This document shows, in pieces, positions 6,355 through 63,790 of a stretch of 64,000 nucleotides of DNA (its first letter is position 1; each line of letters opens with the position of its first letter). The notes beneath the pieces are model-generated. The model ran no database searches. It was not told where the DNA came from and saw only the letters and a list, made by a program, of their open reading frames with translations. The position numbers and the translations under genes were made by a program. Origin of the DNA: Acutalibacter sp. 1XD8-33 (GTDB lineage: Bacteria > Bacillota > Clostridia > Oscillospirales > Acutalibacteraceae); assembly GCF_003612555.1 (NCBI RefSeq), contig NZ_RAZF01000003.1:186001-250000 (forward strand), given 5' to 3'.

Positions 6355-6792
6355 GTTCCGGTTTCCAGGGGACTTTTTTCTCAGTTGCAAAAGAGTTCAT
6401 CTTGTTTCACAAGATGAACTCTCTGTCCCCTCTTGCAAGAGTTTTGCTTCGCAAAACTCGGATAGTTAATCGAGCGAAGCGAGCATTAACTATTATTCAC
6501 CACTTCAAAAAATGCGCTTCTCAGGAGTTTAAGGTCAAGGGCAAGACCTTGGAGGCTCTGCCTCCAAACCACCGCAACCTTTGAAAAGGGCGCTGGTCTC
6601 CGGTGGAGACCGACCCGACCGAACCGACAGGTGAGACGACGAAACTTTTACCCTGGTTAGCTTGGCAAAAAACGCAAAACGTTCACGACGAATGCAATGA
6701 GGAGTGACATTGCGCGGTCAAAGACTTGGCGAAGCCAAGTCTCAGGCGTCTAGGCCCCTGGCGGGGTGTAGGGCAGCGCCCCACGACCTGAA
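6355..6792 (+). repeat. Mosaic hairpin repeat, copy 2 (long form)
   Basis: Fills most of the 490-base gap between the kinase and the S66 peptidase. Modules in order: GGTTCCGGTTTCCAGGGG; hairpin GTTTTGC-TTC-GCAAAAC; AGTTAAT...ATTAACT; CTCAGGAGTTTAAGGTCAAG; covarying hairpin TTGGAGGC-TCT-GCCTCCAA (6549-6567); CCTTTGAAAAGG; GGTCTCC-GGT-GGAGACC; GACGAAACTTTTACCCTGG; ACGTTCACGACGAATG; hairpin GACTTGGC-GAA-GCCAAGTC. It ends directly at the ribosome site of the next gene. Confidence 0.85.
6392..6422 (+). terminator. Perfect hairpin after the two-component operon
   Basis: Thirteen-base arms AGAGTTCATCTTG (6392-6404) and CAAGATGAACTCT (6410-6422) around TTTCA. No T-run follows, so it may be an RNA-stability or repeat hairpin rather than an intrinsic terminator. 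Confidence 0.4.
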
Positions 6793-8572: not shown

Positions 8573-8935
8573 GGGCTGGTTCCGGTTTCCAGGGGCTTTG
8601 TCTCGCCTGCTCCGCAGTCGAGATAGGGGACCCCCGACGAGGGTCCCCTACGCAAAACGTCCCACCGGGACGTTTATGCTACCCTCCTGCGTTGTTTTCT
8701 CAGGTGTTAAGGTCAAGGGATAAGACCTTGGAGGCGCTGCCTCCAAACCACCGCAACCTTTGAAAAGGTTGACGAAACTTTTACGGTTGTTAGGTTAGCT
8801 TGGCAAAAAACGCAAAACGTTCACGACGAATGAAATGAGGAGTGACATTGCGCGGTCAAAGACTTGGCGAAGCCAAGTCTCAGGCGTCTAGGCCCCTGGC
8901 AGGGGCTTGGGGACAGCGTCCCCAAGGTCTTAAGA
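8573..8935 (+). repeat. Mosaic hairpin repeat, copy 3 (long form)
   Basis: Nearly the same module order as copy 2. It opens with GGTTCCGGTTTCCAGGGG but carries the module CGTCCC-ACC-GGGACG plus TTTATGCTACCCTCC in place of the AGTTAAT hairpin. Covarying hairpin TTGGAGGC-GCT-GCCTCCAA, CCTTTGAAAAGG, ACGTTCACGACGAATG and GACTTGGCGAAGCCAAGTC follow. It ends in hairpin CTTGGGGAC-AGC-GTCCCCAAG directly at the Mrp ribosome site. The 93 bases before it (8480-8572) are GC-rich with no clear feature. Confidence 0.85.
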
Positions 8936-17601: not shown

Positions 17602-17868
17602 TTTTTGAGTGATACGGTGTGGCCTCCATGCGTATAGAAACGCGCATTCCGGCAAGACCTTGGAGGCGTTGCCTCCAAACCTCCACCACCTTTGAAAAGG
17701 TGGACGAAACTTTTACCCTGGCTGGCTTTGTCGCATTCAACTAACCAGGGTAAAAGTTTTTGATCCAAACTTTTTTCAAAAAGTTTGGCGCAGGTGTGGG
17801 CCGCGCAGGCCCACGACCTTGCCGTAGGGCGCGACCTGTGCGCCCGAAGGCCTCCTACTACTCCAAAA
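17602..17868 (+). repeat. Mosaic hairpin repeat, copy 4
   Basis: Begins just after the lysozyme stop with GTGATACGGTGTGGCCTCC. Then come covarying hairpin TTGGAGGC-GTT-GCCTCCAA (17660-17678) and CCACCTTTGAAAAGGTGG. The AACTTTTACCCTGG module is followed by its own mirror image CCAGGGTAAAAGTT, and AAACTTTTTTCAAAAAGTTT comes next. It ends at GGCCTCCTACTACTCC. Confidence 0.85.
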
Positions 17869-34744: not shown

Positions 34745-35035
34745 GAAGCGGAGACCCCCTACGCAAAACGTCCTACCGGAACGTTTATGCTACCCTCCCG
34801 CATTGTTTTCTCAGGAGTTAAGGTCAAGAGATAAGACCTTGAGGGCGTCGAGTCTCAGCTGCCGCTTCGGTCGGTTCGCAGCTTGGTCTGCAATACTTGA
34901 TTTTGCCAAGTATCCGGCAAAACGCTCACCCCTCAAACTCCCACGAACTTTCTCAAAGGTTGCAGGGTGTGCCTTAGTAGCGTCCCACGATCTTGCCGTA
35001 GCCGCGCCCTTTGCCTTTTGCGGCGGAGGCCATCA
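34745..35035 (+). repeat. Mosaic hairpin repeat, copy 8
   Basis: Module ACGCAAAACGTCCTACCGGAACG with TTTATGCTACCCTCC, then CTCAGGAGTTAAGGTCAAG, CTTTCTCAAAGG and the TCTTGCCGTAG edge. It fills most of the gap upstream of the NahK-like gene, opposite to its direction. Bases 34558-34744 hold no clear feature beyond a GCTTTGCAAATGCAAAGC hairpin. Confidence 0.75.
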
Positions 35036-43757: not shown

Positions 43758-43895
43758 GATTTTTTGAGAGTGATACGGTGTGGCCTCCGAACGCACAGAG
43801 ACGCGTTCTCCGGCAAGGTCTTGGGGCTTTGCCCCAAACCCCACCAAGGGCCTAACGCCCCTGAACCGCCGGAGGCCTTCCAGTACTCATAAACA
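43758..43895 (+). repeat. Mosaic hairpin repeat, copy 10 (in the rpsL leader)
   Basis: GTGATACGGTGTGGCCTCC, GAACGC / GCGTTC hairpin, covarying hairpin TTGGGGC-TTT-GCCCCAA (43821-43837), then GGGCCTAACGCCC and GAACCGCCGGAGGCC. It lies between the str-operon promoter and rpsL. Confidence 0.82.
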
Positions 43896-47734: not shown

Positions 47735-47945
47735 ACGTTTTGGGACGATGTTTTGGCCTCCGGCGGTTTAGGGGGGGGGCTCACCTACCGGTTCGGTCGG
47801 CGACGGGAAATCGCCACTGGCGATTGTCGCCCCCTAAAAACCCCGCAACCTTTGAAAAGGGCGCTGGTCTCCAGTGGAGACCGTCAAGCGCTGACCGAAC
47901 CGGCAGGTGAGACTGACGAAACTTTTACTTTGGGACCTCCGTTCT
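47735..47945. repeat. Mosaic hairpin repeat, copy 11 (between rpoB and rpoC)
   Basis: GGTCTCC-AGT-GGAGACC, two copies of the ACCGGTTCGGTC / GACCGAACCGGCAGGTGAG module, hairpin ATCGCCACTGGCGAT, CCTTTGAAAAGG and ACGAAACTTTTAC. It covers nearly the whole rpoB-rpoC spacer. Confidence 0.82.
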
Positions 47946-47955
47946 GGCTATCCTT

Positions 47956-50900
47956 CTAAAAATCGTCCTCGCCGCCCTCGTCGTCCAGGCCGAAGTCCTC
48001 GTCGTCCAGGCCGTCGCCGTCGTACTCGTCCTCTTCTTCGTCCTCCAGGGGCTCGCCGTCCTCATCCTCCTGGTAGTAGCCGTCCAGGTCATCGGCCACG
48101 TTCTCCTCGTCGAACACGTCGCCGCCCTTGTTCAGGCCGATATCGTCATCATCAAAGGTCTGCTTCAGGTCGATCTCCTGATTCTCCCCGTCCAGCACCT
48201 TCACGTCCAGGCCCAGGCTCTGGAGCTCCTTGATCAGCACCTTGAAGCTCTCGGGAATGCCCGGCGTGGGGATGTTCTGGCCCTTCACGATGGCCTCGTA
48301 GGTTTTCACACGGCCCACCACGTCGTCGGACTTCACCGTCAGGATCTCCTGCAGGGTGTAGGCCGCGCCGTAGGCCTCCAGGGCCCAGACCTCCATCTCG
48401 CCGAAGCGCTGCCCGCCGAACTGGGCCTTGCCGCCCAGAGGCTGCTGGGTAACCAGGGAGTAGGGACCGGTGCTCCGGGCGTGGATCTTGTCGTCCACCA
48501 GATGGTGGAGCTTCAGATAATACATATAGCCAACGGTAACCGGGTTGTCAAAATATTCGCCGGTACGGCCGTCCCGCAGGTAGAACTTGCCGTCCTCGTG
48601 CATGTTCCCCATGCGGAAGCACTCCCGGATGTCCGCCTCGTGGGCGCCGTCGAACACCGGGGTCATGATCTTCCAGCCCAGGGCGTGGGCCGCCATGCCC
48701 AGATGCACCTCCAGCACCTGGCCGATGTTCATGCGGCTGGGCACGCCCAGGGGGTTCAGCACAATATCCAGGGGGGTGCCGTCGGGCAGGAAGGGCATCT
48801 CCTCCTCCGGCAGAATCCGGGAAACCACGCCCTTGTTGCCGTGGCGGCCGGCCATCTTGTCGCCCACGGAGATCTTCCGCTTCTGGGCGATATAGCAGCG
48901 CACTACCTTGTTCACTCCGGGGGAAAGCTCGTCATGGCTGTTCTCCCGGGTGTACACCCGCACGTCCACCACCACGCCGTATTCGCCGTGGGGCACCCGT
49001 AGAGAGGTGTCCCGGACCTCCCGGGCCTTCTCGCCGAAGATGGCCCGCAGCAGCCGCTCCTCGGCGGTGAGCTCGGTCTCGCCCTTGGGGGTCACCTTGC
49101 CCACCAGGATGTCCCCTGCCCGCACGTCCGCGCCCACGCGGATGATGCCCCGGTCGTCCAGGTCGCTGAGCAGGTCGCCGCTGGCGTTGGGGATGTCCCT
49201 GGTGATCTCCTCGGGGCCCAGCTTGGTGTCCCGGGCCTCCATCTCGTACTCCTCGATGTGGATGGAGGTGTACACGTCGTCCCGCACGATCTTTTCGTTT
49301 AAGAGGACCGCGTCCTCATAGTTGTAGCCCTCCCAGGTCATAAAGCCGATGAGGGCGTTCTTGCCCAGGGCGATCTCGCCGTTCTTGATGCCGGGGCCGT
49401 CGGCGATGACGCTGCCCTCCTCCACCCGCTCGCCCACGTCCACCACGGGCACCTGATTGATGCAGGTGCTCTGGTTGGAGGGCATGAACTTGGTGACCTC
49501 GTAGTCGTCAATGTCCCCGTTGTCCGCGGTGACCCGCACCAGATTGGCGCTGACGGACTTCACAACGCCACCCCGCTTGGCCAGCACGCACACGCCGGAA
49601 TCCACCCCGGCCTTATACTCCATGCCCGTGCCCACGATGGGGCTCTCCGTGCGCAGCAGGGGCACCGCCTGGCGCTGCATGTTGGAACCCATCAGGGCCC
49701 GGTTGGCGTCGTCGTTTTCCAGGAAGGGAATGCAGGCTGTGGCCACGGAAACCATCATCCGGGGGGTGATGTCCATGTAGTCGGCCTTTCCGGCCTCCAC
49801 TTCCACGAACTCGTCCCGGTAGCGGCCCACTACTCGTTTATGGACGAAATGGCCCTCCTCATCCAAAGGCTCATTGGCCTGAGCCACCACGAATTCGTCC
49901 TCCACGTCGGCGGTCATATAGGTCACTTCATCCGTCACCCGGCCGGTAGCCTTGTCCACCCGGCGGAAGGGTGCCTCGATGAAGCCGTACTCGTTGATCT
50001 TTGCGAAGGTGGCCAGATAGGAAATCAGGCCGATGTTGGGGCCTTCGGGAGTCTCGATGGGACACATGCGGCCATAGTGGGTGTAGTGCACGTCCCGCAC
50101 CTCGAAGCTGGCCCGGTCCCGGGAAAGGCCGCCGGGACCCAGGGCGGAGAGCCGCCGCTTGTGGGTGAGCTCCGCCAGAGGGTTGGTCTGGTCCATAAAC
50201 TGGCTAAGGGGCGAAGAGCCAAAGAACTCCTTGATAGCCGCCACCACCGGCCGGATGTTGATGAGGGAATGGGGGGTCAACTGCTCCAGGTCCGCAGCCT
50301 GGAGGGTCATGCGCTCTCGAATCACCCGTTCTAGGCGGGAGAAACCGATGCGGAACTGGTTCTGCAGCAGCTCGCCCACAGAACGGATCCGCCGGTTGCC
50401 CAGGTGATCGATGTCATCGGTAACGCCCAGGCCCACGGCCAGGCAGTTCATATAGTTGATAGAGGCGAAAATGTCCTCCACGGTGATGAAATTAGGGATC
50501 AACTCAGCTTTTCGGCTGCGCAGGGCGGTCTTCAGCTTCTGCTCATCCTCCCCGCACTCCTCCAAGATCTCCTGGAGCACCGGAAAGCTCACCCGCTCAT
50601 TGATGCCGCATTTCAGCAGAGTCTCCTTGTCCAGATCCACATATTTCTGGATATCCACCATGCCGTTGGAGAGAATTTTTACGTCCTTGTCCTCCATGGT
50701 CACGGTCACCGAGGTCACGCCGGCATCGTCCATCTGTTCCGCCAGCTCCCGGTTCACGGTCACGCCCACATCCGCCAAAATTTCTCCGGTGGAGGGGTCC
50801 GCTACCGGCTGGGCCAGCGTCTGGCCGGTGAGGCGTTCCGCAAGGCGCAGTTTTTTATTGTATTTATACCGGCCCACCCGGGACAGATCATAGCGCCTGG

Positions 50901-55555: not shown

Positions 55556-55960
55556 TGGCTTAAGACCTTGGAGGCTCTGCCTCCAAATCTCCGCCATGGG
55601 GCCGAAACTTGGCAAAGCCAAGTTTTCCGCCCCTGGACCGCGCAATGTCACTCCTCATTTCATTCGTCGTGAACGTTTTATGCTATTTGACGAGCTAACC
55701 TAACAACCGTAAAAGTTTCGTAGACTTCGTGAAACGAAATCTTACCTTTCTCAAAGGTTGCGAGGTGTGGAGCAGAGCTCCACAGTCTTTCTCTTGACCT
55801 TAAACTCCTGAGAAAACAACGCAGGAGGGTAGCATAAACGTCCCGCGTTTTGCGTAGGGGCCCCACGTATGGGGCGCTGGTCTCCGGTGGAGACCGACCC
55901 GACCGAACCGGCAGGTGAGACCCCCTATCCCGGTTGCGGAGCAGACGGGAAGCCCTTGGG
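55556..55960 (-). repeat. Mosaic hairpin repeat, copy 13 (between dnaG and rpoD)
   Basis: Long form in the direction of the genes: GGTCTCC-ACC-GGAGACC, CGTTTTGCG with TTTATGCTACCCTCC, CTCAGGAGTTTAAGGTCAAG, covarying hairpin GTGGAGC-TCT-GCTCCAC (55767-55783), CCTTTGAGAAAGG, ACGTTCACGACGAATG, AACTTGGC-TTT-GCCAAGTT, and TTGGAGGC-AGA-GCCTCCAA at the end. It fills nearly the whole gap. Confidence 0.85.
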
Positions 55961-57784: not shown

Positions 57785-58035
57785 CCCTCTCAGGTCGTGA
57801 GGGCTCTGCCCTCACACTCCCGCCACCTTTGAAAAGGTGGACGAAACTTTTACCCACTCCTCGCTTTGCTCGTCGTGAACGTTTTATAATGTTTCCACCT
57901 AGCCCCAACACATTGCGCGGTCCAAGACTTGGCGTAGCCAAGTCTCAGGCGTCTAGGCCCCTGGTAGGGTTTGGGGCAACGCCCCAAGGTCTTGCCCTTG
58001 ACCTTAAACTCCTGAGGAGCGCAATTTTTGCGGGG
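57785..58035. repeat. Mosaic hairpin repeat, copy 14 (dnaG leader)
   Basis: Covarying hairpin GTGAGGGC-TCT-GCCCTCAC (57797-57815), CCACCTTTGAAAAGGTGG, GACGAAACTTTTACCC, GACTTGGCGTAGCCAAGTC, CAGGCGTCTAGGCCCCTGG, TTGGGGC-AAC-GCCCCAA, and CTTAAACTCCTGAGGAGCG in opposite orientation. Modules of both orientations are joined, a clear mosaic. It reaches the dnaG ribosome site. Confidence 0.85.
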
Positions 58036-63556: not shown

Positions 63557-63790
63557 TTCTGAGAGTAGTACTGTGTGGCCTCCGAACGCACAGAAACGCG
63601 TTCTCCGGCAGGACCATGGAGCTCCGCTCCACACCACGCCACCTTTTTAAAGGTGGACGAAATTTTTACCCTAGTCAACCTTTATGCACTCAGCCAACCA
63701 GCGTAAAAATTTCGCCAGCCTTTTCAAAGGCTGCGGGGTTTTCAGGGGTGGAACCCCTGAATCGCCGGAGGCTTGCGTAGCGAAGCGAGC
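63557..63790. repeat. Mosaic hairpin repeat, copy 15 (lexA leader)
   Basis: GTGTGGCCTCCGAACGCAC, GAACGC/GCGTTC hairpin, covarying hairpin TGGAGC-TCC-GCTCCA (63617-63631), CCACCTTTTTAAAGGTGG, a mirror pair of the GACGAAATTTTTACCC module, GCCTTTTCAAAGGC and GGGGTGGAACCCC. It lies between the lexA promoter and the gene. Confidence 0.83.

Follow-up and report, generated by a model that had tools for sequence, protein, structure and literature searches.

The window, by which we mean the whole stretch of 64,000 nucleotides analysed here, encodes an RpoC with 87-88% identity to those of Neglectibacter timonensis and an uncultured Neglectibacter. The genome it comes from (an assembly of 3.62 Mb in 106 contigs) is Neglectibacter-like and carries a palindromic repeat of modular build in more than 100 copies. 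Perfect stems of at least 7 bp with a 3-nt loop number 43 in the window, compared to 3-9 in each of five first-order Markov simulations. The unit under study lies at the GACC/GGTC edge of the repeat and consists of a hairpin with a 3-nt loop (hairpin 1) and a short third segment; a second hairpin (hairpin 2) is one of several possible inner neighbours. At the gathering threshold, one tRNA is the only Rfam family in the window, and the repeat unit matches no Rfam family at that score. Judging by titles and the first lines of abstracts, we found no paper on such repeats in Neglectibacter.

A sequence-only reading had named six stems at this position of the repeat, and all six are present within one base of where it had put them (6549, 17660, 43821, 57797, 55766 in a minus-strand unit, and 63617). 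The lexA context that it gave for the last of these is correct as well.

Table 1. Repeat features and their positions in the window
Feature	Positions	Strand	Remarks
Outer edge AAGACC of focal unit	6543-6548	+	Read from the sequence; edge served to delimit copies
5' arm TTGGAGGC, purine-rich, focal unit	6549-6556	+	
Loop TCT, 3 nt, focal unit	6557-6559	+	
3' arm GCCTCCAA, pyrimidine-rich, focal unit	6560-6567	+	
Third segment ACCACCG, focal unit	6568-6574	+	Mirrors 3' arm, but A for T opposite A-T pair
Hairpin 2 as far as CAACCTTTGAAAAGG, then broken by E module	6575-6589	+	
Unit TTGGAGGC/GCCTCCAA, third segment ACCACCG	8728-8753	+	
Unit TTGGAGGC/GCCTCCAA, third segment ACCTCCA	17660-17685 (stem 17660-17678)	+	
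Edge AAGACC, TTGAGGGC ... CCCTCAA, third segment ACTCCCA	34833-34943	+	Unit with E module inserted in loop
Unit TTGGGGC/GCCCCAA, third segment ACCCCA	43821-43843 (stem 43821-43837)	+	Upstream of S12 domain of rpsL (rpsL on -)
Unit TTGGAGGC/GCCTCCAA, third segment ATCTCCG	55568-55593	+	Between rpoD and dnaG
Unit GTGGAGC/GCTCCAC, third segment ACCTCG	55761-55783 (stem 55766-55784)	-	
Unit GTGAGGGC/GCCCTCAC, third segment ACTCCCG	57797-57822 (stem 57797-57815)	+	Asymmetric core, exact mirror; near dnaG start
Hairpin class TTGGGGC at other end of the 57797 element	57971-57987	-	Class differs from left end
Unit ATGGAGC/GCTCCAC, third segment ACCACG	63616-63638	+	Start of lexA ORF; 63617-63631 stem inside 7-bp stem, one outer A.C mismatch

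Hairpin arms stay paired while their sequence changes

Copies were collected blind to hairpin 1. With hairpin 2 as the anchor, we gathered 246 distinct copies (109 from the window's own genome, the rest from genomes of the same genus) and kept those whose 5' limit was a GACC/GGTC edge at a distance of 3n+2, leaving 94 delimited copies. The other 152/246 anchor copies have a different or broken outer edge that could not be parsed as GACC/GGTC and lie outside the analysis. Arm length in the 94 copies is fixed by two limits and is independent of complementarity. Hairpin 1 is formed in 83/94 copies (50 of the 83 from the own genome), with perfect arms in 74, one mismatch in eight and two mismatches in one. 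Its arms comprise 12 core sequences, or nine after leaving out single mismatched copies.

Covariation was assessed by permutation tests in place of R-scape, with every 7-bp and 8-bp row included and the 6/94 delimited copies of other lengths outside the test. For the 7-bp geometry (49 copies), 330/343 pair cells match, compared to a permutation mean of 260 and a maximum of 281; the 8-bp geometry (39 copies) gives 281/312, with a mean of 217 and a maximum of 241. The observed pairing was never reached when the 3' arms were shuffled among copies 20,000 times, at either arm length. The earlier claim that both arms change together is thus borne out far beyond chance in copies chosen without regard to complementarity, and pairing is kept while the sequence changes both genome-wide and in relatives.

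On the strand that reads purine arm, pyrimidine arm and third segment, the hairpin 1 mismatches are 7 A.C and 1 G.T, plus 2 of other kinds, and on the complement the ratio is reversed (7 G.T versus 1 A.C). A plain purine/pyrimidine pattern search gave complementary arms at most of the matches listed, and at least four of the listed places in the own genome are without them. One multiplied subfamily, GTGGGACGTTGCTAAGGCAC ACCCT (L019, L020, L029, L068 and L078; five copies, four of them among the 94), has no matching 3' arm and keeps its third segment.

The arms of hairpin 2 (7 bp) are perfect in 229/246 copies and comprise at least six arm types, with 8 G.T and 6 A.C mismatches. In hairpin 2 modules throughout the genome (e.g., window 8754-8771), the CNNCCTTTGAAAAGGNNG arms change together as CCACC/GGTGG, CAACC/GGTTG, CAGCC/GGCTG, CGGCC/GGCCG and CCGCC/GGCGG. 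No third segment was noticed beside hairpin 2.

A third segment mirrors the 3' arm

The hairpin observation is real and larger than first noted, and what is new here is a third segment that covaries with both arms. The 6-7 bases 3' of the hairpin mirror its 3' arm, giving three covarying segments. Among the main classes, those with A in the core typically have a sequence following the 3' arm that is the arm's mirror about its last base, as in GCTCCAC-ACCTCG, GTCCCAC-ACCCTG, GCCTCAC-ACTCCG, GCCCTCAC-ACTCCCG, GTCCCCAA-ACCCCTG and GTCTCGC-GCTCTG. We tabulated the triples in 83 copies; among the 11/94 left out are two GCGAGAC/GCTCTG units for which the register was wrong. At Watson-Crick core G-C pairs (300 cells), the third base is C in 285, T in 14 and A in 1, while at core A-T pairs (63 cells), it is T in 53, A in 9, G in 1 and C in none. 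Most of the G-C pairs facing T (11 of the 14) are at the last core position. The whole core is mirrored exactly in only 57/83 copies. The all-G cores are the weakest, with an exact mirror in 8/19 (7/15 and 1/4) and mostly T at the last position in the remainder.

Permuting the third segments among copies gave p <= 5e-5 for both arm lengths, with all copies and with distinct sequences, and also when every 7-bp and 8-bp row was kept. When the permutation was confined to single hairpin 2 types, the observed value was at least as high as the largest of 5000 shuffles. Since the copies are related, these copy-level p values overstate the evidence, and class-level values are safer. For the 7-bp geometry with five cores, 20/20 positions follow the mirror (p = 0.0083); the GGGG core has a 7:7 tie, and resolving it in the opposite sense gives 19/20 (p = 0.017). 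The 8-bp geometry gives 30/35 with seven cores (p = 0.014) and 19/20 with the four clean cores only (p = 0.083).

Asymmetric cores separate a mirror from other kinds of copy. Here, the mirror holds in 44/56 copies (12/19 distinct), and in 53/56 (16/19) when A is allowed opposite A-T. Reading the third segment as a direct duplication or as an inverted copy was rejected, with 0/56 asymmetric-core copies fitting either. In a wider set of hairpin 2 neighbours with looser edges, G-C pairs face C in 421 cells and T in 18, and the 91 A-T cells face T in 70, A in 19, G in 1 and C in 1. This broad search also picked up units read in reverse and hairpins with no relation to them, and for units with other neighbours we re-selected the strict-edge rows; among units adjoining other inner modules, 7/9 with asymmetric cores keep the mirror rule. 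Within the window, at 2749-2774, a unit with another outer edge (CTCCGGCGG) has the arms CTGGGGAC/GTCCCCCG with TCCCCTG, and it has siblings with GGGGGC and CCCCCA. Units with this outer edge seem to follow the same mirror rule.

Further copies and other genomes

When three mismatches at most are allowed, the hairpin 2 anchor (CCACCTTTGAAAAGGTGGACGAAACTTTTACC) has 116 matches in the own genome and none in the control. A similar anchor is present in 17/29 genomes searched within the genus, counting the own one, and in 0/31 other genomes. Copy number per species within the genus (G000-G028, some assemblies being incomplete) ranges from 0 to 148, a spread among congeners that suggests bursts of spread or loss.

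Searching with a degenerate purine/pyrimidine pattern plus the edge yielded 70 places in the own genome, matches in 4/394 genomes of the order (own included), and no control matches. Ten third segments from these loci were new; all eight A-containing cores show T (6) or A (2) opposite A, and 4/10 segments have T opposite a G-C pair. The plain n=7 pattern returned 30 loci, of which 18 were new, and at the new loci, G-C pairs face C in 51/54 cells and A-T pairs face T in 9 and A in 1 of 10; L396, L398 and L409, all among the 18, fall short of clean units and contribute only those positions where the pair matched. With only CCCC fixed, seven places outside the genus were found, where the base that follows is T in five of the six GGGGA cores, G in the other, and C in the sole GGGGG core.

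One genome of another family in the same order (G102) has two TTGAGGGC units, with the third segments ACTCCCG (exact) and ACACCCA. The edge and unit are shared by its loci L348, L351, L354, L356 and L358, and in some cases additional units made up of an edge and a hairpin with a larger loop come next, such as GACCTCGGGAC tacgc GTCCCGAACCCTG in L354.

Element anatomy and neighbours

Complete elements have one unit at each end, facing inwards and so in opposite orientation, and in all 21 found, the two ends carry different classes. Pairing of the third segment with the other end of the element is unsupported, given that the ends are of different class in every complete element. Avoidance of equal ends is itself not significant (probability of no equal pair by shuffling 0.10). 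Both the outer and the inner neighbours of the unit vary between copies. A second small module, which we call E, is a variable hairpin around CCAGTGG followed by CCGACCGARCCGGCAGGYGAGAC; it recurs as an insertion within the hairpin loop of the unit or next to that loop (window 34833-34943 and 47770-47960; L201, L209, L409 and many loci of the own genome). Outward complementary arms of at least six bases surround it in 44/75 copies; when right flanks were swapped, the mean over 20 trials was 21.8 copies and the maximum 29.

The gap between rpoB and rpoC is 280 bp in the own genome and holds an element of the repeat family, with another outer edge and inserted E modules. Because the gap is 14-24 bp in 10/10 relatives examined (L110-L119, of 80 fetched), the element was probably acquired in this lineage, between two genes that are normally transcribed together. 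For the one mobility enzyme family examined, Y1 transposase, no link to the repeat emerged: neither hairpin nor the E module lies within about 1.5 kb of the two loci with Y1_Tnp above the cut-off (L342 and L343), and a weak locus below the cut-off (L344) has some units.

Discussion

We tentatively read the unit as a potential intrastrand triplex, folded from single-stranded DNA, that would mark or protect a mobile composite repeat at its ends, and we rate this as possible while stopping somewhat short of calling it probable. The unit would be laid out as a purine arm, a 3-nt loop, a pyrimidine arm, a short link and the mirror third segment (5' R-Y-Y' 3', or 5' R'-R-Y 3' on the complement). DNA that becomes single-stranded, e.g., in replication or mobilisation, could fold into the hairpin plus a third strand, the most likely form being a purine motif on the G-rich strand, and the shape, rather than the sequence, would mark or protect the end of the element. 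We infer from sequence patterns that a triplex may form, that it would do so in DNA, and that it might serve the mobility or upkeep of the element. A role as end mark or protection is suggested by the position and orientation of the units and by their patchy distribution.

The exceptions to the mirror rule appear to fit purine-motif DNA better than RNA. The purine-motif code allows 347/363 core cells, compared to 338/363 for the pyrimidine-motif code. According to parts of Holder et al. 2015 (PMC4666352), the purine-motif code also permits T.A-T; this triplet being allowed on the other strand, the nine cases of A opposite A-T are covered by the purine motif. The same source states that purine-motif triplexes do not form in RNA. 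Because A opposite A-T is allowed in this motif, and because the motif is said not to form in RNA, DNA with a purine motif is favoured. The arm mismatches, mostly G.T on the other strand, hint weakly in the same direction.

Other observations speak against a triplex. The core classes are few, implying few independent events, the copies are related, and the strictest class-level test gives p = 0.083; in addition, the GTGGGACGTTGCTAAGGCAC subfamily multiplied without a matching 3' arm. The mirror is also incomplete, being exact over the core in 57/83 copies, weak in all-G cores, and broken by T opposite G-C in 4/10 of the new segments and by C in one of the 91 A-T cells of the wider set. Triplex stability is doubtful because each unit has only 4-5 core triplets, fewer than the search minima of at least 6 (Holder's ITxF) and more than 7 (Hoyne), both as given in Holder et al. 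2015 (PMC4666352). For a longer triplex motif in E. coli, parts of the same paper describe a triplex seen in vitro that in vivo DMS footprinting did not show.

Bacterial intrastrand triplex motifs are known as PIT elements, BoxC or TM_ECO (Hoyne and Maher 2000, as cited in parts of Holder et al. 2015, PMC4666352). As far as they are described there, these motifs share with the repeat here the multi-copy nature, an arrangement of three adjacent blocks along a single strand, loops of 3 nt and a duplex arm mirrored by the third block. In 83/94 delimited copies, a purine arm, 3-nt loop, pyrimidine arm, short link and third segment follow one another, which agrees with the PIT/TM layout in the broad sense (purine, pyrimidine and Hoogsteen blocks in a row, joined by loops of 1-6 nt), and at 338/363 core cells (pyrimidine code) or 347/363 (purine code) the third block obeys the triplet code as a mirror of a duplex strand. 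In Holder's scheme (PMC4666352), the unit would fall into class III when read on one strand and into class I on its complement. We do not file it as a PIT/TM member, because its triplets are fewer than the minimum. TM_ECO itself is outlined in PMC4666352 as proteobacterial and nearly symmetric, with 9-nt blocks in the order Y-R-R' (5'-CCCTCNCCC N3-6 GGGNGAGGG N3 GGGNGAGGG). That TM_ECO/BoxC consensus does not describe the unit here, which differs in block order and length and, with 4-5 core triplets, has several asymmetric classes, three-way covariation and a place as the end module of a composite repeat.

The repeat also resembles other mobile or hairpin-forming sequences. REP/BIME palindromes, associated with RAYT (Y1) transposases, are multi-copy hairpins in modular mosaics. 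The repeat here likewise consists of multi-copy hairpins in a modular mosaic, but unlike REP/BIME with RAYT it has a mirror third segment, and its genome's above-cut-off Y1_Tnp loci have no units nearby. Mitochondrial mobile double-hairpin elements, as partial accounts present them, are small hairpins that spread, and hairpins nested in loops occur here too; in contrast to those elements, the repeat is bacterial and has an extra covarying segment. Template-switch-maintained RNA hairpins, in the parts of PMC8794818 that describe them, are perfect stems of changing sequence, as here, with two covarying segments to which the unit adds a mirror third.

The sequence-only reading had suggested that pairing is selected. 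Paired arms alone are no proof of this, since template switching within a hairpin can create or repair perfect stems and so restores pairing (parts of PMC8794818). Arms might therefore be kept complementary by mutation without selection, one being copied onto the other, with the mirror segment an incidental feature fixed when a few classes were founded. Such upkeep would suit hairpin 2, whose arms change together without a third segment, as well as the rarity of intermediates, the lack of a clear G.T enrichment in either hairpin, the few classes and the strictest 8-bp class-level p of 0.083. Template switching, however, yields reverse complements and is not expected to give mirrors, whereas asymmetric cores are mirrored in 44/56 copies and repeated directly or as a reverse complement in 0/56, and we think mutational upkeep unlikely. 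The earlier reading had named swapping of whole hairpins as something that would refute it, and on this point it is only partly supported. Because the core set is limited (12) and the ends differ in 21/21 elements, swapping of whole units can account for much of the variety between loci: a few ancient three-part classes would have spread by recombination, with loci differing only through swapped units, consistent with discrete classes and with the same classes beside several inner modules. Partly matched forms (TTGAGGAC/GTCCCCAA with CCCCT; GTGGGGC/GCCCCAC with CCCT) indicate that classes also change stepwise, and shuffling leaves the mirror inside each class unexplained; as a full account, we consider it improbable. 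The mirror third segment, which neither copying nor template switching explains, speaks for selection on a fold.

A folded single strand, RNA or DNA, was the earlier proposal, and it remains the natural reading; the RNA half of it is not favoured. Elements lie between or adjoin rpoB-rpoC, rpsL, rpoD-dnaG and lexA, and RNA can form pyrimidine-motif triplexes (parts of Holder et al. 2015, PMC4666352), so a transcript hairpin with a pyrimidine-motif triple helix might stabilise mRNA or slow polymerase. Against this, the units face opposite ways in 21/21 complete elements, so that either strand shows one of each form, and A opposite A-T (9/63) is no pyrimidine-motif triplet. Nor is G.U clearly enriched, with 1 G.T versus 7 A.C in hairpin 1 (7 versus 1 on the complement) and 8 versus 6 in hairpin 2. 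We regard a structure at the RNA level as about as improbable as shuffling alone. On the G-rich strand, some classes contain GG four times (GGAGG TTT GGAGG), which would allow the same bases another fold, such as a two-tetrad G-quadruplex or an i-motif, and a protein might instead read two half sites. The GTGGGAC/ACCCTG and GCGAGAC/GCTCTG classes are without four G runs and still keep the mirror rule, and we hold explanations of this kind to be very improbable.

Comparative covariation has long served as evidence for RNA pairs and base triples. For DNA triplex repeats, we found no earlier report of three-strand covariation in the open-access literature, and the main text of Holder et al. 2015 (PMC4666352) contains neither 'covari' nor 'compensat'. 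The intrastrand triplex proposed here bears on the question of whether such structures form and matter in bacteria. The wider proposition, which we put forward with more doubt than the reading of the unit itself, is that selection acts in living bacteria on short intrastrand triplexes that fold from single-stranded DNA and serve a mobile composite repeat as end marks independent of sequence, with three-strand covariation as the evolutionary evidence. The asymmetric classes within this one genome already offer third strands that match or mismatch, with which the idea could be tested directly.
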